DNA from: Planctomycetota bacterium
GTDB taxonomy: Bacteria > Planctomycetota > UBA1135 > GCA-002686595
NCBI GenBank assembly: GCA_016220085.1
Contig: JACRIN010000008.1
Span: 62,001 to 126,000 of the forward strand
DNA: 64,000 nucleotides
Reading direction: 5' to 3'
The notes below the pieces were generated by a model, which did no database searches, was not told the DNA's origin, and saw only the letters and a program-made list of their open reading frames with translations. Of this stretch, positions 21,054 through 58,217 are shown one piece after another; position 1 is the first letter of the stretch; each line of letters opens with the position of its first letter. The position numbers and the translations under genes were made by a program.

Positions 21054-21806
21054 ATGCCCCTTCTTCCCCGTTGGATGTCCAGGGTCAAAGCCCTGTTCGG
21101 TGGCGGGGGGGCCCGGCCCGAAATCGACTGGCCGGCCTGGGAAGCCCGTATCGGCCGGATCGTCACGAGCGAGGTCGAGCGGGTCCTGCCGTACTTCCCT
21201 GACGACGGCGTGATCGTCGACGTCGGCGCCAACATCGGCCTGTTCACCGCGACCCTGCTCGGGCGACGTCCGAAGGCGAGCGCGATCTGCTTCGAGCCGG
21301 TGGCGAGCTTCTGCGAGCGCTGTCGCGCGCGCTTCGCCGACAACCCGCGGGTGCGGATCGAGAACCTGGCGCTCGGCAACCGCAACGAGCGCACGACGAT
21401 CTACAAGCCGACCCACAATCCGGGCGGGAATTCGCTCGTCCGCGCTCAGGTCGAGATCTACACCTCCAAGCACCGCGTCAACTGGGAGCGCGAGCAAGTC
21501 GAAGTGCGCGTCTTCGACGATTGGGCCCGCGAGGCGGGCATCACACGCGTCGATCTGATCAAGACCGACACCGAGGGGCACGACTACGCGGTGCTCCAGG
21601 GCGTTCTGCCGTTCCTGGAGCGCACGGGTCAGCGCCCCGTGATCCTCTCGGAGCTGCTCGCGAAGAGCCTCCACCACGCTTGGGGCGAACAGATGGCCGT
21701 GGTCGAGCGTCTCTACGCGCTCGGGTACCAGAAGGTCGACCTCGAGTCGATGCGCGAGATCGACGACATCCTGTTCGTGCCCGCTGGGCGCGCGCGGGTC
21801 GAGTAG
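21054..21806 (+). CDS. FkbM-family SAM-dependent methyltransferase
   Basis: 250 residues. SAM motif I is VDVGANIGLFTATLL at about 55-69, followed by the acidic strand end CFEPVASF. The family-specific block DLIKTDTEGHDYAVLQG lies near 170-186. FkbM-type enzymes O-methylate hydroxyl groups of polyketides, sugars and lipids and are common in surface-polysaccharide gene sets. The next gene, 22 nt downstream, encodes a polysaccharide flippase, which supports a role in methyl-decorating an exported glycan. The N-terminus (MPLLPRWMSRVKALFGGG) is amphipathic and may touch the membrane. Confidence 0.88.
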   Translation: MPLLPRWMSRVKALFGGGGARPEIDWPAWEARIGRIVTSEVERVLPYFPDDGVIVDVGANIGLFTATLLGRRPKASAICFEPVASFCERCRARFADNPRVRIENLALGNRNERTTIYKPTHNPGGNSLVRAQVEIYTSKHRVNWEREQVEVRVFDDWAREAGITRVDLIKTDTEGHDYAVLQGVLPFLERTGQRPVILSELLAKSLHHAWGEQMAVVERLYALGYQKVDLESMREIDDILFVPAGRARVE

Positions 21807-21828
21807 GCGTGCGGAGCGGGGCCGCGCC

Positions 21829-23223
21829 TTGAAGTTCCTCGAGCGTATCCGGCACAAGTTCGTCCGCGATGCCCTGACGCTGCAGGTCGGTGCGTTGTTC
21901 AACGCGGTCGGCAACTTCGTCTCAGCCGCGTTGCTCGCGCACCTGCTCGGCGCGGAGGTGCAGGGCAAGTTCTACGTCGCCACCTCGCTCTACTCTTTGC
22001 TCTGGTTCCTCGTGAACCAGGGGCTGATGCAGGCGACCGTCAGCCAAGTGGCCGCCGCGAATTCGCGCGGCCAGCCCGACAAGGTCGCGGGATGGACCGC
22101 GTGGCTCGTGAAGGCGAGCGTGGTCTTCGGACTGGTGCTTGCCGGACTCGGGTTCTTGACGCTTCCGTTCCTCGCCGAGCACGTGCTCGACACCGATCGG
22201 CGCGTCGGTTGGTGGGCCGCGTGGATGGCATTGTCGCCTTTGCTCGAGACGCCGCGCGTCGTCGCATGCGCGGCGATGCAAGGCACTCGCCGCATGCTGC
22301 CGTTCGCGCAGACCGAGAACGCACAAGAGGCGATTCGCGTGTTCCTCGTGATCATCGGAGCGCTGATCACCAACTCGGCTGTCGGACCGGTCATCGGCAC
22401 GCTCGCGGCCTCCGCGCTCGGTTCCGTGGTCGCCACCGAGCTCTACCGCCGCGACCGTCTGCACGCGGATTCGCCGCTCCCGAGCTTCGCCGCGATCCGC
22501 AAGTTCGTCTTCGTCGCGCCGCTGCTGTACGGCGCGCGCCTCGGCGTCAAGCTCGGCATCGTCCGCAACCTGAACGCGCTCTGCATGGAGGTCGTGCCAT
22601 CGCTCCTGATCGAGCGCTTCGGCTCGAGCGAATGGGTTGCGTACATGCGCATCGCGCAGCGCCTCATGCGCGTGCCGCTGATGTTCATGCAGGGCATCAG
22701 CCGCACCGCGCTTCCGATGTTCAGCGAGCGGGCCGCGCTGAAGGACATCGCAGGTCTGCGCCGAGCCTTCTTCAAGGCGAGCGTCGTGTCGGGCTTGGTG
22801 ATCACGCTCGGCATCGCCGTCGTGCTCCCGTTCCTGCCCTGGATCCTGCGCTTGGCGTTCCCTGCGACCTACTCGGACCCCGTCCTGATGGTGTGCCTGA
22901 TCCTGGTGCCGGGCTTCATCGTGATGTCATTCTCGATCGCGAACGACACGTTCTACCTGGTGACCAACACCTTGCGCGTCGCCGTGACGATCTCGGTGGT
23001 CGGCATGTGCATCAGCGTCGTGATGCTCGTGTTGCTCGCTCGCTGGAATCCCACGACCGGCGTGGCCTGGGGTCTGACGATCAACATGGCGTGCAGCTCG
23101 CTGCACCTCGTCTACGCGGCGTGGTACTTCCGCAAGCACGCGCGCGAGAGCTTGCCGCCCGGTACCGCCGTCGCTCGCGTGCCGGCGCCGGCCGCCGAAG
23201 ACGCGCCGGTCGCCGAGGGCTAG
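21829..23223 (+). CDS. Polysaccharide flippase (Wzx/MATE-like, MOP superfamily)
   Basis: 464 residues from a TTG at 21829; no in-frame ATG lies near, and a GGAG sits about 12 nt upstream. The protein is almost entirely hydrophobic, with roughly 12 to 14 membrane helices. It begins with a basic stretch and a helix containing FNAVGNFVSAALLAHLLGAEVQGKF, read in pieces, the usual first helix pattern of Wzx-type exporters. These proteins move lipid-linked oligosaccharides across the inner membrane. The C-terminus is a Pro/Ala-rich cytoplasmic tail. Tandem hairpins follow the stop, so this is the last gene of the unit with the FkbM methyltransferase. Confidence 0.83.
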   Translation: MKFLERIRHKFVRDALTLQVGALFNAVGNFVSAALLAHLLGAEVQGKFYVATSLYSLLWFLVNQGLMQATVSQVAAANSRGQPDKVAGWTAWLVKASVVFGLVLAGLGFLTLPFLAEHVLDTDRRVGWWAAWMALSPLLETPRVVACAAMQGTRRMLPFAQTENAQEAIRVFLVIIGALITNSAVGPVIGTLAASALGSVVATELYRRDRLHADSPLPSFAAIRKFVFVAPLLYGARLGVKLGIVRNLNALCMEVVPSLLIERFGSSEWVAYMRIAQRLMRVPLMFMQGISRTALPMFSERAALKDIAGLRRAFFKASVVSGLVITLGIAVVLPFLPWILRLAFPATYSDPVLMVCLILVPGFIVMSFSIANDTFYLVTNTLRVAVTISVVGMCISVVMLVLLARWNPTTGVAWGLTINMACSSLHLVYAAWYFRKHARESLPPGTAVARVPAPAAEDAPVAEG

Positions 23224-24098: not shown

Positions 24099-26954
24099 TC
24101 AGCGCTCGGAGTCGAGCACGCGTTCCAGGTTGCGCCCGAGCTCGTCGAACGGATCGATCTTGCGAGCGTGCTCTAGCGCCGACCGAGCGTCCTCCTCGCG
24201 GCCGACGGTCGCGTAGCACGTCGAGAGCGCCGTCAGCACACGCGGCGAGTCCGGGTGCCGCGCGCGGAGCGCTTCGAACACCGGCAGCGCGCGCGCGGGC
24301 GCACCGTTCTGCGCGAGGATCGTGCCCGCTTCGAATGCGAAGTCCGGTGCGAGCGCGACGAGGTGCTCGATCCGCTCGCGCGCCTCGTCCGGCCCCGCAT
24401 CGGTGGCGAGGACGAGCTGGTCGACCAGCAGCGCGGGCCGGTCGGGCGCGAACGTCAGCGCGAGCTCGACCAGTTGCGCCGCCGCGTCCCGCCTGCCGCA
24501 CTGCAGCATCAGGTCCTTGAGCGACGTCAGCGCCTCGACTTGCTCGGCGCCGGAACCCCATGCGAGGAAGGTGTCGCGCGCGAACGCGAGGTCGTACGCG
24601 CGCAGCACCGCTTGGCCGGGCGGCACCGCGTCTCGCACCGCGAACAGGCTGCGCGGCGCGGAGTACTCGATTTGCAATGCGAGGTCGGTGTGGACGGAAG
24701 TACCGCCCTCGGCAGCGAGCAGTCGCTCCAGGCCGCGCTGGTCGAGCATCAGCGACGACAGGAGATACGTCCGCGCGTCGGTCGTTCCGCACCAGCGCTC
24801 GAGATCCTCACGCACGTCCGGCGTGGTGTCGATCCAGCGTTGGATCGCGTCGACACCGACCGCATCGGGGACGATCCTCTCGCGCGAGGCGAAGAGGATC
24901 GTGTCCGACTCGTCGATGCGCGCGAGCACGACGTGCGGGAACACTTTGCGCAGCGTGCGCACGATCATCGCGTAGTCGGAGAGCGAGAGCGCGTAGGTTT
25001 GCAGCCACTGCGCGAGCACTCCGCCGCGTTCGAGTCGCTCGTTCGCGCCGCGGTAGAACTCCTCGGTGAAGAGGTTCGACACGCCGACCATCCACGGGTT
25101 CGACGGCTCGGACACGATCAGGTCGAAGCGCTCGTCCGTCGCCTGCACGAACGCGCGGCCGTCCTCGGGCACCACGCGGAAGTTCGGCGAGTCCCACGGG
25201 CGGTGGTTGATCTCGGCGAAGTGCTCGGCGGCGGCGATCACCGAGGGCTCGATCTCGACGCAGGTCACCTTGGTCTCCGGATACAGGAGGCTGGCGCCCG
25301 CCGTCGTGCCGGTGCCCATACCGATCACGAGCACGCTCCGAGCGTCGGGGCGAATGCAGCGCGGCAAGTACGCGAGCGAGAGCTGCGTGCGCATGTCGGT
25401 CGCCGTCGAGGCATCGACCTTTCCGTCGACGAAGAGCGAGCGGCGGCGTTGGGCGTAGCGTGCTTCGCTCGGCAGCGCGTCCTCGTTCTCGCCGACGACC
25501 AGCACGTCCGCGCTCGCGCCGTTGGCGAAGTACACCGCGCGCAGCGAGCTCGGGTTCTCGTTGCCGATCGAGTTGCCGTACATGTAGCGACCGCGGTGCG
25601 TCGCGAGCGGCTCGGCCGGCGTCGGCCAGAGCGTCAGCGCGGCGACGCCGAGCAGCAGGGTCACCGGCGCGACGCGGCCGGCCTGGCGCGGACGGGCGAA
25701 CTGCAGCGCGAGCAACGCGGCGAGGTACGCGCCGAGCGCGACGCGGTAGCCGTGGCTCGAACCGAGGCTCGGCAGGATCGCGACGTTGGTCAACGCCGCG
25801 GCGGGGATCGAGCCGAGCGTGTTCCAACCGTAGACGAATCCGACGGCGCCGGAGTCCTGGTCGTCGCGACCGGCGAGGCGCACCAGGCTCGGGAAGAGCG
25901 CGCCCATCGCGAACGTGGGCAGGAGGACGAGGGCGCACGCGAATCCGACGCAGACCGCGGTGTCGCCCGCCGCTTCGACGCGCACCCCGAGCAAGCCGCC
26001 GGCGGCGAGCGAGAGCCACGGTTGCAGCGCGCGGCCGAGCAGCGTCGTGGCGACGACGAGCGCGACCAGCGCTCCAGATGCTTGCAGCGGATCCCAGTTC
26101 CGGCCGATCAATCGCAGCACCAGGCTGCCGAGCCCGAGACCGGCGACGAACACCGCGAGCAACGCGGTGTACGCGTACGTCGTGCTGCCGATCAGCACCG
26201 CGAGGTCGCGCGACCAGAGCATCTGCAGGATCAGCGCGCCCGCGCCGGTCGCCGCGGCGGCGAAGGCGAGCGCGATGCCGCGCGGCGGCCGCGCGAGCTC
26301 GATCTCGGGCGCGCCCTCGTTCGTCGCGCCACGGCCGAGCGCGCAAGCCGCGACGCCGATCGCGGAGCTGACGGCCGCGACCAGGTAGTTGGCGCGCAAC
26401 AACCCGAGCGCGGGCAGGAGGTCGAAGCCCGCGAGCCACGCGCCGCCGGCGGCGCCGAGCGCGTTGAGAGCGTAGAGCACGGAGGTCGCGGCGCCGGTGC
26501 TCTGGCCGGTGACGACGAAGTGGCGGACGAGCAGCGGCAACGTCGCGCCCATCGCGATCGTCGGCGGCGCGAGCACCGCGAACGTCAACGCGAAGCGAAT
26601 CGCCGCGCGCGCCCAGGCCGCGTCGCCGAGCACGCTCGTCCACGCCGCCGCGCGCGTCGCGAGCCAGCCGATCTCGAACGGGATCGCGAGCGCCGCGACG
26701 GTGACGACGAGCTCGGCGACGCCGTAGGCGAAGAGCGGTCGACGGACGCGCGCTGCCCACGCGCCGAGGAAGCGCGCACCGAGCCCGAGTCCGAGCAAGT
26801 ACGCGGCGACCACCGCGGCCCACGCGTGCGCCGAGCTGCCCCACACGTGCCCGAAGCGCTTGAACCAGATGACCTCGTACGCGAGCGCCGTCGCGCCCGA
26901 CGCGACGAAGAATGCGCCGGAGAGGAACAGGTTCTGGCGACGCGCGTCGAGCAT
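24099..26954 (-). CDS. Multi-pass membrane spermidine-synthase-like protein with TPRs
   Basis: 951 residues in three parts. Residues 1 to about 480 hold some 12 to 14 membrane helices, beginning LFLSGAFFVASGATALAYEV. Residues about 500-720 form a spermidine-synthase-type SAM-fold domain: VLVIGMGTGTTAGASLL near 537, TCVEIEPSVIAAAEHF, and DLIVSEPSNPWMVGVSNLFT in which the acidic residue sits in the usual catalytic place. Residues about 830-945 are TPR-like. Similar fusions are common in environmental phyla and usually have no proven polyamine synthase activity, so a membrane-linked aminopropyl or methyl transfer is only a guess. The gene follows the aminotransferase by 6 nt in one operon. Confidence 0.82.
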   Translation of the reverse strand: MLDARRQNLFLSGAFFVASGATALAYEVIWFKRFGHVWGSSAHAWAAVVAAYLLGLGLGARFLGAWAARVRRPLFAYGVAELVVTVAALAIPFEIGWLATRAAAWTSVLGDAAWARAAIRFALTFAVLAPPTIAMGATLPLLVRHFVVTGQSTGAATSVLYALNALGAAGGAWLAGFDLLPALGLLRANYLVAAVSSAIGVAACALGRGATNEGAPEIELARPPRGIALAFAAAATGAGALILQMLWSRDLAVLIGSTTYAYTALLAVFVAGLGLGSLVLRLIGRNWDPLQASGALVALVVATTLLGRALQPWLSLAAGGLLGVRVEAAGDTAVCVGFACALVLLPTFAMGALFPSLVRLAGRDDQDSGAVGFVYGWNTLGSIPAAALTNVAILPSLGSSHGYRVALGAYLAALLALQFARPRQAGRVAPVTLLLGVAALTLWPTPAEPLATHRGRYMYGNSIGNENPSSLRAVYFANGASADVLVVGENEDALPSEARYAQRRRSLFVDGKVDASTATDMRTQLSLAYLPRCIRPDARSVLVIGMGTGTTAGASLLYPETKVTCVEIEPSVIAAAEHFAEINHRPWDSPNFRVVPEDGRAFVQATDERFDLIVSEPSNPWMVGVSNLFTEEFYRGANERLERGGVLAQWLQTYALSLSDYAMIVRTLRKVFPHVVLARIDESDTILFASRERIVPDAVGVDAIQRWIDTTPDVREDLERWCGTTDARTYLLSSLMLDQRGLERLLAAEGGTSVHTDLALQIEYSAPRSLFAVRDAVPPGQAVLRAYDLAFARDTFLAWGSGAEQVEALTSLKDLMLQCGRRDAAAQLVELALTFAPDRPALLVDQLVLATDAGPDEARERIEHLVALAPDFAFEAGTILAQNGAPARALPVFEALRARHPDSPRVLTALSTCYATVGREEDARSALEHARKIDPFDELGRNLERVLDSER

Positions 26955-29106: not shown

Positions 29107-30420
29107 ATGAGCACGACGAACACCCCCACGCAGTCGCGTTGGACCCGCGAGGCGATCGAAGCGTTCCTCGCGCGCGAGAAACCGCGCTACCAGCGCATCG
29201 AGCTGCCCTACGGCCTCGCAACGGAAGGCGAGGACCGCCGCACGAGCTCGGACTCGCTGCTTCCGGAGCGCCTCGACGGAAAGAGCGTGCTCGACGTCGG
29301 CTGCTTCCTCGGTCACTTCAGCCACGAGAGCCTGCGGCGCGGCGCGACGCGCGTCACCGCGATGGAGCTCAATCCCGATCGTTTGCGCCAAGCGCGCACG
29401 ATCGCGGACATCCTCGGGTTGCCGATCGAGTTCGTCCGCGGCGACATCGAGCGCGCGGCGCCGCCGGGGACGTTCGACCTGGTGCTCTGCCTGAACGTCG
29501 TGCACCACCTGAAGGACCCGATTCGCGGGCTCGACAACCTCGTGCGGGCGACGCGCGACCACCTCGTGCTCGAGATCGCGGGCCTCGAGAACCACACCGC
29601 GCGCAAGCTGCTCTTCGGCCGCGGCCTGCTCGCCAAGGTGCCGCGGCCGGGCCTCGGGCGGCGGCCGCTCGCGGTGATCGGCGGCGGACGCAAGGCGCGG
29701 TACGACGAGCTCTTCTTCTTCACGCCCAAGGCGCTCGAGCACATCCTGCTCGGGCATCGCAACACGGTCGCGAAGGTCCGGACGCGCGCTTCGCCGTTCC
29801 GCGGGCGCTTCGTCGTCGAGGCGTGGAAGCGGCGCTTCGACGACCTGATGCTCGTGTGCGGTCTGCCGGGCTCCGGGAAGTCGACGGTGTGCGACCGACT
29901 GCGCTCGGGCGATCTGCCGGAGTTCGCGCGCGGCCTCGCGCTCGACAAGCCGGCCGAGTGGGTCTTCACCGGCCCGGTGATCCTCGACGAGCTCGCGGAG
30001 CCGTACGTGCCGCGCGTGCTCTTCCACTACGACCTGTTGCGCGGCAGCGCGCTCGCCAACTGCGGCTACGAGCGCGACGCGGCGCTCGACGCGGTCGATT
30101 GCGCGACGCGGGTGCGGGCGGTGATGGTCTGGGCGGATCCCAAGCTGCTGCGCGAGCGGTTGGAGAAGCGGTGGCGCGCCGACCACGGCGACGAGCCGAG
30201 CGCGAAGGCCCGCCGCGAGCGCGAGGAACGCCTCGACTTCCTCGCGAGTCCCGAACGCCTCTCGGGCTTGCTCGACGAGTGGTTCGCGCACGCGCGCGCG
30301 AAAGGCTGGCAGCTCGAGTTCCTCGACAACTCCGGCAACCTCGAGCGCATCACGCGCGCCGAGTTCCACGCCCGCGCGAAGCGAGCAGGGCTTTCGCTCA
30401 GCGACTCCAGCTCAAGCTGA
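29107..30420 (+). CDS. Fused SAM methyltransferase and P-loop kinase-like protein
   Basis: 437 residues. The first 245 or so form a class I methyltransferase: LAREKPRYQRIELPYGLATE at 21-40, SAM motif I VLDVGCFLGHFS at 61-72, the acidic end MELNP, and LCLNVVHHLKDP at 127-138. The N-terminal block recalls the CmoB/Mo5U34 tRNA methyltransferase neighbourhood. Residues 247-437 are a P-loop domain with Walker A GLPGSGKS at 252-259 and a conserved FHYDLLRGS at 306-314. Its closest relative in the window is the stand-alone P-loop protein at 53661, and the methyltransferase matches the one at 54284. The last 23 nt overlap the convergent TonB receptor gene. The substrate is unknown. Confidence 0.85.
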   Translation: MSTTNTPTQSRWTREAIEAFLAREKPRYQRIELPYGLATEGEDRRTSSDSLLPERLDGKSVLDVGCFLGHFSHESLRRGATRVTAMELNPDRLRQARTIADILGLPIEFVRGDIERAAPPGTFDLVLCLNVVHHLKDPIRGLDNLVRATRDHLVLEIAGLENHTARKLLFGRGLLAKVPRPGLGRRPLAVIGGGRKARYDELFFFTPKALEHILLGHRNTVAKVRTRASPFRGRFVVEAWKRRFDDLMLVCGLPGSGKSTVCDRLRSGDLPEFARGLALDKPAEWVFTGPVILDELAEPYVPRVLFHYDLLRGSALANCGYERDAALDAVDCATRVRAVMVWADPKLLRERLEKRWRADHGDEPSAKARREREERLDFLASPERLSGLLDEWFAHARAKGWQLEFLDNSGNLERITRAEFHARAKRAGLSLSDSSSS

Positions 30421-53660: not shown

Positions 53661-54251
53661 ATGCAACGCGCGCGCCTGCACATCGTCAGCGGTCCGTCGA
53701 GCGGCGGCAAGTCGCAGTTCATCGGGACTCTGGAGGGGAGTTACGACGAGCTCCTGTTCCCGAGCTCGCTCGATGCGCTCGCCCCGCAGCCCGGCCGCCG
53801 CTACGTGCTGCACTACAACCTGATGCGGCCGATGGAGCGGCTCGCGAAGCTGCACGGCGCCGGCTCGCTGGAGCAGCGAGCCCGCGCCCTCGGGCTGGAG
53901 ATGCGCATGCGCGTGCAGAATCCGTTCGGAACCGATCGGGCGCTGCGCGCGCTGAAGCGACTCGACACCGATGCGTGCGCGACCGTGCTGGTGACGTCGC
54001 GCGCCGAGCTGGAGCGGCGGATGCGAGCGCGCGACGCCCGGGAGACGCTGGTCGAGGACGGCATCGCCTACCCGCGCGAAAAATGGCTCGAGCTGCTCGC
54101 CGAGGTCGATCTCGGCGCGCTCTACCGCGACTGGCTCGAGTTCCTGCGCTCGCGCGGCATTCCCTACGCGCTGGTCGACGCCGGCGATCCGACGTATCGA
54201 CGCTTGGTGTCACTCGGCGAGCTCCGAGTCTGCTTGATGGAGCGCGGTTGA
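53661..54251 (+). CDS. P-loop kinase-like protein, partner of methyltransferase
   Basis: 196 residues from ATG 53661. Walker A GPSSGGKS lies at 11-18, and a conserved VLHYNLMRP at 49-57 corresponds to FHYDLLRG in the fused protein at 29107. Later segments also align by eye (ALYRDWLEFLRSRGIPYALVD against LLDEWFAHARAKGWQLEFLD), so both are the same family. A small-molecule or nucleotide kinase fold is most likely. The stop is overlapped by a TTG that is in frame with the next gene, which suggests translational coupling with the methyltransferase. The function is unknown. Confidence 0.8.
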   Translation: MQRARLHIVSGPSSGGKSQFIGTLEGSYDELLFPSSLDALAPQPGRRYVLHYNLMRPMERLAKLHGAGSLEQRARALGLEMRMRVQNPFGTDRALRALKRLDTDACATVLVTSRAELERRMRARDARETLVEDGIAYPREKWLELLAEVDLGALYRDWLEFLRSRGIPYALVDAGDPTYRRLVSLGELRVCLMERG

Positions 54252-54283: not shown

Positions 54284-54958
54284 ATGACCCAGGCCGAGCT
54301 CGAGTCGCTGCTCGCGCGCGAGAAATTCGTGTATCAACGGATGGCGTTGCCGCACGGGCTCGCGACGCGCGGTGAAGACCGCACCGCGACCGCGAACGTG
54401 ATCTTCCCGGCGCGCATGGACGGGAGGTCGGTGCTCGACGTCGGTTGCTGCTACGGGTTCTTCCTCTACGAGGCGCAGAAGCGCGGCGCGACGCGGCTGG
54501 TCGGGCTCGAGAGGAATCCCGAGCGTCTGCGCCACGCGCGGATCCTGCGCGACGTGTACGGCGGCGGGCCGGAGCTGTCGGACGACGACTTCGAAGCGGT
54601 GTGCGCGCGCGATGCGTTCGACGACGTGCTCTTGCTCAACGTGTTGCATCACCTGAAGGAGCCGGTCGCCGCGCTGCGCACGCTCGCGCGGGCCGCGAAG
54701 CGCCGATTGGTCGTCGAGTTCCCGACCCCGGCCGACCCGAAGTTCGCGGAGGGCCTGCTGCCGGGCGTCGCGGCGGCTTTGACGCGCCTGCCGCTGATCG
54801 GCGTGAGCTCGCTCGCGGAGAACGACCAGACGTTCCTCTTCTCGAAGGCCGCGTTCGAACGCGTTCTGACCGAGCACGAGCAGCTCGTCTCCAAGATCAC
54901 CTTCCTCGCCTCTCCGAAGAAGGAGAAGGGCCGCGTGATCGCGATCTGCGAGAAGTAG
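54284..54958 (+). CDS. SAM methyltransferase paired with P-loop gene
   Basis: 224 residues from ATG 54284; a TTG at 54248 overlapping the previous stop would add 12 residues and is also possible. SAM motif I LDVGCCYGFF at 51-60, acidic end GLERNPERL, and LLNVLHHLKEP near 118. The first 60 residues align with the methyltransferase half of the protein at 29107 (AREKFVYQRMALPHGLATRG against AREKPRYQRIELPYGLATEG). So the pair 53661/54284 is a split version of that fusion. The substrate is unknown. Confidence 0.82.
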   Translation: MTQAELESLLAREKFVYQRMALPHGLATRGEDRTATANVIFPARMDGRSVLDVGCCYGFFLYEAQKRGATRLVGLERNPERLRHARILRDVYGGGPELSDDDFEAVCARDAFDDVLLLNVLHHLKEPVAALRTLARAAKRRLVVEFPTPADPKFAEGLLPGVAAALTRLPLIGVSSLAENDQTFLFSKAAFERVLTEHEQLVSKITFLASPKKEKGRVIAICEK

Positions 54959-55016
54959 CGCGCGAATCGGGAGGATCTTGCGACGCGGCGCGTCCCGTGG
55001 CGTTCTGGAAGTCCGC

Positions 55017-58000
55017 ATGGACGCCGACGCACGCAAGCCGGAACTCGACGAGCTCCTCGCGCACTCCGCGTGGGCCTGGACGCTCGCCAGGCGATTGGTG
55101 CGCGACGGCGAGAGCGCCGATGACGTCGTGCAGGAAGCGTGGGTGCGGGCGCTCCAACGTCCGCCTTCGTTCGCGTCGCCGGAAGCGTCGCCGCGGCCGT
55201 GGCTCGCGACGGTGATGCGCAACGCGCTCACGCAGTGGCGCCGTTCCGATGCGCGGCGCGTCGGGCGCGAGCAAGCCGCGGCGCGCCCCGAAGCGCTGCC
55301 GGCGGTGGATCGCGCGTTGGCGCGCGAGCAAGCGCGGCGTGGCCTGGTCGACGCGGTGCTCTCGCTCGACGAACCGTATCGCTCGACGTTGCTCTTGCGG
55401 TACTTCGACGAGCTCTCGCCTGCTGCGATCGCCAAACGCGAGGGCGTGCCGGCTTCGACGGTGCGCAACCGCGTGAGCCGCGGTCTCGAGCTGCTGCGCG
55501 CCCGCTTGCGCGGCACGCGGGCCGCGGACGGCCGCGACGCCCTTTCCGCACTCGCGCCGTTCGCCCTTTCGCGCCTGCCTTGGAACCTGATCCCGATCGG
55601 ACTGCTCGCCATGAAGAAGTTCCACGTCGCGTGGGTTGCCGTCATCGCGCTGTGCGGAGTCGACGGAGGAGCTTGGTACGCATCGCGACTCGCGCCGCTC
55701 GAGGTCGAAGCGGGGGTGAGTCCTGAAGCGCAAGTCGCGCCCGTCGCGCAGCCCTCCGAGAGCGCGCCGCCGATGTCGGAGCGTTCGCCGGTCGCGTCCG
55801 AAGCGAGTGTCGCGGCGGCAGCGCCAACCGGTCACCTTCTGCGCGTCCTGGACGGTGTCACGCGCGCGCCGGTCGCCGGTGCGACGGTGGTCTACGCCTC
55901 GCGCGCGTCGATCTCGAGCGGTTGGGCGCGTTTCGCGCCGCCGCTTTCCGGCGACGTCGAACGCGATCTCGAAGCAGTCGGTACGCGGGCTACCAGTGAC
56001 CAGCACGGCGAGCTCCGGATCCCCGAACCGCCGGAGACGCTGGTCGTCGTCGCGCGCGCCGACTGTTCGTGGGGACAGACGTCCGTGGATCCGCGCGCGA
56101 CAGGTCCAACCGAAGTGCTGCTGGAGGACGACGTCACGCTGCACGCGCGCGTCGTCGACGAGCGCGGCGAGCCGGTCGCAGGCGTGCCTCTGGCGATCTC
56201 CAGGATCTCCGACACCGGCCGTGCCGGAGATCTCGAAACCTGGCCTACCGACGCCGCCGGTCGCGCGGAGATCCCGCACGCGCAGATGCGCGGACAGTCG
56301 AGGCGCGGCGAGCTGATGGTCCACTTCGGTTTCCCGAGCTCCACCCCGGGCGTGCGCGTCGATCTCTCGCGGCCCGAAAAGGTGCTCGAGCTCACGCTGC
56401 CGGCGACCGGATCCTTGCGCGTTCGCTTGCTCGACGGCGACGGCAAGCCGCTGACCGGCCGGTATCGCGTCGACGCGAGCATCGCCGACGTTCGGTCCGA
56501 TACCGAACGGCGCGTGGGAGGTGACATCGAGGTCGTCGGATCCGAAGGCGTGTTCCCGTTCGTCGATCTCGGTCGGCAGATCGGCGCGACGGCATGGCCG
56601 GGCGATCTCGCGGAGACGGACGCGTGCACCGGAGTCGGCGCAGGTCCGCGGCAGCCCGGCGAGGAGGCGATTCTCGAGCTGCGACGTCCGCCCGGGCCGC
56701 GCGATTGCATCATCGCCGTGCAGGATCACGATGGAACCGTGCTCGCGAAGAGCCGCCTTGCCTACGAACTGATCGACAGCCTTCAAGTGCCTCTGGAAGC
56801 CCTGACCGAGGTCGTCACCGATGACCAAGGGAGCTTCACGATTCCGCGCGGCCGGTCCGGCGCCTTTCGTGGACGCGCAGCGTTCGTGCGCGTCGTGCGC
56901 CGCGGCGCGGACGGCACGATCGAACAGGAAGTGCGGGAGCGCCTCGCGCTGCTCGAGCCCTCGAGACGAGGCCGGTCGTACGTTCGACTCGGGCCGTCGC
57001 GCGTGCTCGCCGCCGGGTGTGTGCTGAGTCCGAGCGGCGCTCCGTGCGCGGGCGCGAGCGTCGTGCTCTACCGCCGCAAGCCGCCGCCCGATGCCGAGGC
57101 GCGTCGCCGCGCGGATGAAGGCTGGGTGTCGCTGACCGACGAGTTGCAGAAGCTCGCGCAGCTCGGCTACGGCCCGGCGTCCGGTCCGAGCGACGACTGG
57201 GTACGAGTGTGCGCGACGCGCTCGAACGACAACGGTTCGTTCGAGCTGCGAGGGCGGGAGCTCAGTGCCGAGTGTGCGCTGCTCGCGTCGGCCGACGGCG
57301 CGCGACCGTCGGAGCTCGAGCGGATCGTCCTCGGTTCGATCGACAACGAGCTCCGTCTGCGCGCGACGTGTTCGTTCTCGGGCCGCGTCCTGGTTGCCGA
57401 TCCGGAGTTCCTGGCGGTGCTGACCGTGTGCGCTTCGCGCGAACCGCTCGTCCTGCTCACGCCGTCGACCCGTGATGCGAGCGTCGTGGGCGTCGACCGA
57501 ACGGGTCGCTTCGCCTTCGACGACGCCCCGTGCGGGCCGATCCACGTGACGGCGTCCATCGATGGGCAGCTCGCCTACGATGCCGGCACGGTCGTCCCCG
57601 ACGAGCTCGGGGGTGCCGAGTACGTACTCGACCTGCGCGGTCGGCTGTTCGAGCATCAGGTCGAGCTCGTCGACGAAGCGGCCGCTCCGATCGGCACGGG
57701 CAGCCTGCGCTGGCGCGACGCGCGCTCGCCCGATGCGCCCTGGCTCGAAGCGTTGGTCGTCGACGGGCTCGCCATCGTGCGCACGGCGGCGCCCGCGATC
57801 GACGTCGAAGCGCGCGTCGACGCGCGGAGGATCGTCGCGAGCGAGGATCTCGCCGGCAGCGCCAAGCTCGTGCTCCCGCCCGCGTGTCGGCTGACCGCCG
57901 TGCTCGGCGACGCGTTCGACCTCACCGAGCCCGGAGTGCACGTGGAGCTGTGGGTGCACCCGACCGGCGTGCTCGGCGAGCGCGGTCACGGCAGGGAACT

Positions 58001-58217
58001 GCGCGATGAACGCTCCGCGGCGTTCTGGCTCCAGGAACCCGGCGAGTGGATCGTCGAGTGGTACCTGGCCGACGACGCGAAACGTTTGCGCGAGCCGCTC
58101 GCGTGGAGTTCCGTGACCGTCGACGAGGGAACGCGGGAACTCTCGACGGCGCTCGAGATCTCGCCCGACGAGTTCGCGCGGCATCGAGCGAACCTGCGAA
58201 CCGCACGCGACAAGTGA
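55017..58217 (+). CDS. ECF sigma factor fused to membrane anchor and ectodomain
   Basis: 1066 residues from ATG 55017, which has GGAAG 6 nt upstream; a TTG at 54978 has a poorer spacing. Residues 1-165 are an ECF sigma factor: region 2 with DDVVQEAWVRAL (35-46) and PWLATVMRNALTQWRR (61-76), region 4 with LSLDEPYRSTLLLRYFDELS (116-135) and the recognition helix ASTVRNRVSRGLELLRARL. A linker leads to one membrane helix at about 202-222 and then about 840 residues with repeated carboxypeptidase-regulatory-like or Ig-like beta units (GHLLRVLDGVTRAPVAGATV, HARVVDERGEPVAGVPLAIS). The whole is one open frame with no internal stop, so the sigma domain would be held at the membrane. Confidence 0.88.
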   Translation: MDADARKPELDELLAHSAWAWTLARRLVRDGESADDVVQEAWVRALQRPPSFASPEASPRPWLATVMRNALTQWRRSDARRVGREQAAARPEALPAVDRALAREQARRGLVDAVLSLDEPYRSTLLLRYFDELSPAAIAKREGVPASTVRNRVSRGLELLRARLRGTRAADGRDALSALAPFALSRLPWNLIPIGLLAMKKFHVAWVAVIALCGVDGGAWYASRLAPLEVEAGVSPEAQVAPVAQPSESAPPMSERSPVASEASVAAAAPTGHLLRVLDGVTRAPVAGATVVYASRASISSGWARFAPPLSGDVERDLEAVGTRATSDQHGELRIPEPPETLVVVARADCSWGQTSVDPRATGPTEVLLEDDVTLHARVVDERGEPVAGVPLAISRISDTGRAGDLETWPTDAAGRAEIPHAQMRGQSRRGELMVHFGFPSSTPGVRVDLSRPEKVLELTLPATGSLRVRLLDGDGKPLTGRYRVDASIADVRSDTERRVGGDIEVVGSEGVFPFVDLGRQIGATAWPGDLAETDACTGVGAGPRQPGEEAILELRRPPGPRDCIIAVQDHDGTVLAKSRLAYELIDSLQVPLEALTEVVTDDQGSFTIPRGRSGAFRGRAAFVRVVRRGADGTIEQEVRERLALLEPSRRGRSYVRLGPSRVLAAGCVLSPSGAPCAGASVVLYRRKPPPDAEARRRADEGWVSLTDELQKLAQLGYGPASGPSDDWVRVCATRSNDNGSFELRGRELSAECALLASADGARPSELERIVLGSIDNELRLRATCSFSGRVLVADPEFLAVLTVCASREPLVLLTPSTRDASVVGVDRTGRFAFDDAPCGPIHVTASIDGQLAYDAGTVVPDELGGAEYVLDLRGRLFEHQVELVDEAAAPIGTGSLRWRDARSPDAPWLEALVVDGLAIVRTAAPAIDVEARVDARRIVASEDLAGSAKLVLPPACRLTAVLGDAFDLTEPGVHVELWVHPTGVLGERGHGRELRDERSAAFWLQEPGEWIVEWYLADDAKRLREPLAWSSVTVDEGTRELSTALEISPDEFARHRANLRTARDK

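Follow-up and report, generated by a model that had tools for sequence, protein, structure and literature searches.

Proteins that join a methyltransferase to a kinase are known to cap surface polysaccharides, and two types of kinase are found in them. In WbdD, the O-antigen chain terminator of E. coli O9a and Klebsiella O3, the terminal mannose is phosphorylated and the phosphate is then methylated (PMC3482155). The Klebsiella pneumoniae O7 protein ORF6 produces a methyl-phosphate cap by an N-terminal methyltransferase-kinase with a different kinase. This kinase resembles AmiN, the protein also has a coiled coil and a carbohydrate-binding module, and that report makes no mention of a P-loop (PMC11231755). 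A P-loop kinase able to phosphorylate a membrane glycolipid is also described, namely LpxK, the lipid A 4'-kinase (PMC6286764).

The window, by which we mean the whole stretch of 64,000 nucleotides analysed, contains a methyltransferase and a P-loop kinase-like domain in two arrangements, 23 kb apart. In the first, referred to here as type A, both are parts of one 437-aa protein (29107-30420, + strand), with a class I SAM methyltransferase at the N-terminus (residues 1-240; Methyltransf_25, 4.7e-14) and the P-loop domain at the C-terminus (about residues 243-437; AAA_33, PF13671, 1.3e-6, 29.2 bits against a gathering threshold of 27). The methyltransferase motif I VLDVGC (residues 61-66, 29287-29304) is kept in relatives, the Walker A motif GLPGSGKS (residues 252-259, 29860-29883) aligns with theirs, and a HYDLLR motif follows (residues 307-312, 30025-30042). 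In the second arrangement, type B, two genes on the + strand take the opposite order. A 196-aa P-loop kinase-like gene (53661-54251), with Walker A GPSSGGKS (residues 11-18, 53691-53714) and HYNLMR (residues 51-56, 53811-53828), precedes a 224-aa methyltransferase gene (54284-54958; Methyltransf_23, 2.1e-10) with motif I VLDVGC at residues 50-55 (54431-54448). The split P-loop gene had no significant Pfam match, its AAA_33 score of 11.3 bits being below the threshold of 27, and AAA_33 was also weak in the remaining P-loop members scanned. The open reading frames and all the shared strings named in the original prediction were found in the translations.

The type A protein has the order of WbdD, methyltransferase then kinase in a single protein. 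However, the kinase of WbdD is folded like a eukaryotic protein kinase, with a long coiled coil behind it, whereas the module of the window has a P-loop domain with a Walker A motif and an AAA_33 match, has no such coiled coil, and also exists as a permuted lineage. The fusion is without a coiled-coil ruler, as its P-loop domain reaches about residue 426 of 437 and no long terminal helix is seen in the model. WbdD chains were among the PDB matches of the methyltransferase profile (E 4e-6), over the SAM-binding core only. The O7 protein is alike in being an independent pairing of a methyltransferase and a kinase in one protein, although its kinase is of another kind. As the kinase type differs and the ruler is missing, the module was not placed in the WbdD or the O7 group of terminators. 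LpxK resembles the activity proposed below, in being a P-loop kinase acting on the sugar of a membrane glycolipid, but it is built of two Rossmann-like domains and has no methyltransferase partner, and the families listed for the P-loop half up to an E-value of 1 did not include LpxK.

The kinship of the two methyltransferases of the window is beyond chance, with 96 of 219 positions identical (44%, E 4e-41). The strings shared between the fusion and the split pair are AREKPRYQRIELPYGLAT and AREKFVYQRMALPHGLAT, GKSVLDVGC and GRSVLDVGC, and HYDLLR and HYNLMR, respectively, with HHLK in both methyltransferases. For the P-loop halves, the homology had been claimed by eye, and the two window sequences alone aligned only marginally, with 10 of 23 identities around the HY motif (E 0.03) and a probability of 11% in a first hhalign comparison. 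Since the pair can barely be aligned, the claim was weak by itself and distant relatives were needed. Once these had been included, the profiles of types A and B aligned over 142 columns with an hhalign probability of 97% and an E-value of 4.8e-11, which bears the claim out: the P-loop halves are remote but genuine homologues belonging to one family, instead of to unrelated ones.

Both arrangements are conserved within the genus. The fusion was found in three other genomes of the genus with 81-97% identity, and the split pair in all four genomes sampled, always as separate ORFs 20-32 nt apart (4/4), so that a frameshifted fusion was rejected as the origin of the pair. Where one contig carries both loci, they are spaced by about 23-24 kb. 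Compared with the window copies, dN/dS was 0.07-0.27 in the two parts of the fusion and 0.11-0.30 in the split pair, and values of 0.07-0.30 indicate that all four pieces are under purifying selection.

Outside the genus, a scan of genome contigs with the methyltransferase alignment detected two relatives, for which we use the taxon names of the MAG records. One, in the gammaproteobacterial MAG Gammaproteobacteria WB5_5_057 (L046, 5443-6660), is a reverse fusion that starts with the P-loop domain, matching the order of the genes in the split pair of the window. The other, in the Nitrospirota MAG Nitrospirae bacterium GWC2_42_7 (L047, 5980-7233), is a fusion with the methyltransferase first, as in the window. 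A search of 343 planctomycete genomes gave two more fusions of the same order, in the distant planctomycetes G184 (246 bits) and G252 (238 bits). Every methyltransferase above 200 bits in these genomes was paired with a P-loop partner, and the next one, at 108 bits, is from a shorter subfamily that lacks the P-loop half. Sampling the Nitrospirota phylum (346 genomes) and the gammaproteobacterial class (321 genomes) revealed no additional members. The module is rare and patchy, being known outside the genus from four genomes. The original prediction had taken fusion in one place and pairing in another as a sign of joint function. This is well supported, as each methyltransferase found in the subfamily has a P-loop partner, in the same ORF or in the adjacent gene, and fusions are present in other phyla.

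The module recurs as a unit whose halves come in either of two permuted arrangements, and the difference in domain order noticed at the outset is real and tracks lineage. In the P-loop tree, types A and B were split with support of 100/100; in the methyltransferase tree, monophyly was supported for type B (98/92), and for type B only. Type A carries the motif (H/Y/E)(Y/H/F)D and type B carries HYN, Asn replacing Asp in every type B member found. There are therefore two old lineages: in type A the methyltransferase comes first and the motif is HYD, and in type B the P-loop comes first and the motif is HYN. Because the type B split genes group with the gammaproteobacterial fusion, apart from the type A fusion, a recent local duplication followed by fission was rejected, and the window carries one member of each old permuted lineage and no recent split duplicate. 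Other origins were also considered. The fusion had no match in annotated phages or, in four scans, in viral contigs, and a phage or viral origin was rejected. On plasmids, only the methyltransferase domain was matched (at most 49% query coverage), with no matches for the P-loop half. A defence system was rejected, since PADLOC gave only generic methyltransferase matches to mad2 and a weak mad8 match in one relative.

The P-loop half also occurs without this methyltransferase. Lone P-loop genes, both of type A, were found in G347 and G732. In the planctomycete G276, a type B P-loop domain is fused behind a sulfotransferase-like domain (L084:8654-10009, + strand), and in another planctomycete, G188, a type B P-loop gene adjoins and overlaps a sulfotransferase gene (L085:9413-10706, - strand). 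The G188 sulfotransferase is homologous to the sulfotransferase domain of G276 (44% identity, E 4e-41), which makes these two loci a second pair, for the same P-loop module, that is fused in one genome and adjacent in another.

For each AlphaFold2 model, five sequences were used. The model of the type B P-loop protein had a mean pLDDT of 77; that of the fusion reached about 90 over much of residues 241-435, with a poor N-terminus and a whole-chain mean of 70. With the type B model, Foldseek placed polyphosphate kinase 2 (PPK2) best (E 2.4e-4), followed by adenylate kinases, deoxycytidine kinase (dCK) and thymidylate (dTMP) kinases, and the P-loop half is predicted to have a kinase-type fold. 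These best fold matches are nevertheless distant, with about 9-17% identity, TM-scores of at most 0.54 and no match at the level of sequence families, PPK2 not being among the families listed for the P-loop half. In both models a core strand (residues 300-309 in the fusion, 47-53 in type B) terminates at the HY(D/N) residue, a Walker B-like position. A PPK2 analogy for the Asp or Asn at this position was dropped, as a published review gave no support for it. The alignment gave as signatures of the P-loop half the Walker A motif, HY(D/N)xxR, an Asp after it and a YxxW-like helix near the C-terminus. The Walker A GK was kept in 10 of 11 aligned members and the full GK[ST] in 9 of 11. For the G184 fusion, GKK is found in place of GK[ST]; for the G252 fusion (L069:8009-9349, - strand), GK is lost while EYDFLRP and the methyltransferase motifs are intact, which suggests that its kinase half is degenerate or altered.

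For the methyltransferase half, the matches of the fusion model were mostly small-molecule methyltransferases, including NodS, EvdMO1 and CmoB. The closest curated NCBIfam models were TIGR04290 (E 2.3e-19; 69.7 and 63.9 bits, below its cut-off of 300) and CmoB (E 2.9e-9, within a range of 1e-9 to 9e-9), which gave 36 bits against a cut-off of 209 and 34.5-37.5 bits against 275, below both. By the curated cut-offs, this half is CmoB/TIGR04290-like and a member of neither.

Most loci outside the genus, when their neighbours were read locus by locus, have genes for glycosyltransferases, sulfotransferases, LPS kinases or LPS export around them. The Nitrospirota fusion is surrounded by a Kdo/WaaP-family LPS kinase, two glycosyltransferases and a sulfotransferase, and the gammaproteobacterial fusion is directly followed by a sulfotransferase. 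There are only 2 and 3 Sulfotransfer_3 genes in these two 2.6-Mb MAGs, so that chance would hardly place one beside the module in both, although this was noticed post hoc. Near the G184 fusion are two ELM1 proteins and an ABC exporter, and an LptF/LptG-family permease lies about 5 kb away; in G252 an ABC exporter adjoins the fusion and is the only such context there. The two exporters (L068:10608-12455, - strand, and L069:5642-7333, + strand) are homologous with 41% identity. Glycosyltransferases lie around the G188 pair, a GT92 gene is next after the G276 fusion, and the lone P-loop gene of G732 is in a cluster with a glycosyltransferase and ManC, while that of G347 has no clear glycan context. 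In the window itself, neither locus is within a glycan cluster, and the only such genes seen nearby are those of an FkbM-family methyltransferase (21054-21806, + strand; PF05050, 1.2e-14), 7 kb upstream of the fusion, and a Wzx-like flippase of the Polysacc_synt family (21829-23223, + strand; PF01943, 7.7e-16), about 6 kb upstream, together 6-8 kb away and given as context only. These two adjoining genes (21054-23223, + strand) form a small polysaccharide locus of their own.

Taken with the fold, these neighbourhoods incline us, with modest confidence, to an enzyme of surface glycans that would both phosphorylate and methylate a sugar, in the manner of WbdD or of the O7 terminator of Klebsiella, but using a P-loop kinase from an undescribed family. 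The module would act at the cytoplasmic face, on a glycan or glycolipid of the cell surface. ATP would bind the P-loop, the kinase-like half would phosphorylate a sugar hydroxyl of a lipid-linked or surface-destined glycan, and the methyltransferase half would transfer a methyl group from SAM onto the phosphate or onto the same sugar. We infer that the P-loop half is a kinase and does not perform other P-loop chemistry, that the substrate is a sugar, and that phosphorylation comes before methylation. Types A and B probably act on different acceptors or positions. Against the kinase and glycan reading stand the lost Walker A GK of G252 and the Asn of type B at a position in which one would expect an Asp for catalysis or Mg binding; with the GKK of G184, these are difficulties for a kinase mechanism common to all members. 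The missing coiled-coil ruler, the placement of both window loci outside any glycan cluster, and the neighbourhoods of G252 (an ABC exporter only) and G347 (no clear glycan genes) also count against this reading, as does a review that reported no O-antigen pathway in early planctomycete genomes (PMC3422733).

Another, unlikely but reasonable explanation is that both halves act on the same surface glycan without acting in sequence, the methyltransferase capping or decorating a sugar hydroxyl and the P-loop half phosphorylating another position or regulating assembly through ATP. The P-loop module alone (G347, G732) or with a sulfotransferase (fused in G276, adjacent in G188) implies that methylation is not required, and in G252 the methyltransferase motifs have outlasted the Walker A motif. 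However, the methyltransferase subfamily was never found without its P-loop partner, suggesting that methylation depends on the P-loop step. The original prediction had also offered a nucleotide or a tRNA as the substrate beside a surface glycan, and it is the glycan that the neighbourhoods in other genomes favour, the other two being without support. An RNA or nucleotide modification, with a kinase and a methyltransferase acting on tRNA or RNA ends, as in CmoB or bacterial Pnkp/Hen1 repair, would be consistent with the weak CmoB similarity and with the nucleotide and nucleoside kinases among the fold neighbours of the P-loop half. Yet about 36 bits is far from the CmoB cut-offs of 209 and 275, no Pnkp or Hen1 families were reported in the family scans, and in the loci read no RNA-processing neighbours were seen and surface-glycan genes predominated, which leaves this improbable.

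The P-loop scaffold is common to sulfotransferases, and the P-loop half could be a sulfotransferase-like user of PAPS and no kinase at all, the more so as sulfotransferases adjoin or are fused to this domain. A kinase-type Walker A GK in 10 of 11 members, the lack of any sulfotransferase family match in the P-loop half and the listed Foldseek matches, which include kinases and no sulfotransferases, make this very improbable. The marginal alignment of the two window P-loop sequences might also suggest chance adjacency with convergent short motifs and no joint function. This is scarcely credible given independent fusions of both orders in other genomes, homology at the family level and purifying selection on all four pieces, and chance adjacency is refuted by the recurrence of the fusion.

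Returning to the phosphorylation and methylation of a surface glycan, a tentative and rather doubtful extension is that the module represents a third, independently evolved class of glycan-capping enzymes that form methyl-phosphate (or phosphate plus methyl) and are based on a P-loop kinase, with two ancient permuted lineages and with the P-loop module also paired with sulfotransferases for other phospho-decorated surface glycans. If true, the P-loop version would be a further solution beside the two kinase types, and would provide a function for a P-loop family now matched only by generic AAA domain models. The methyltransferase fusions in both orders and the sulfotransferase fusion predict which reactions are coupled, and there would be a bearing on the envelope glycans of planctomycetes, which are poorly known.

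Some minor observations were made at these loci. At the end of the G276 contig, a truncated ORF (L084:10933-11196, + strand) runs from a sulfotransferase-type loop, GTGRCGTTLL, straight onto HYNLLRPF, possibly through misassembly. In the window, the gene directly 3' of the split pair (54978-58217, + strand) encodes 1079 aa, comprising an ECF-type sigma factor (Sigma70_r2 and r4) and a long C-terminal part with CarboxypepD_reg. A 951-aa protein encoded at 24099-26954 (- strand) combines a hydrophobic N-terminal half with a spermidine-synthase-like domain and TPR repeats.
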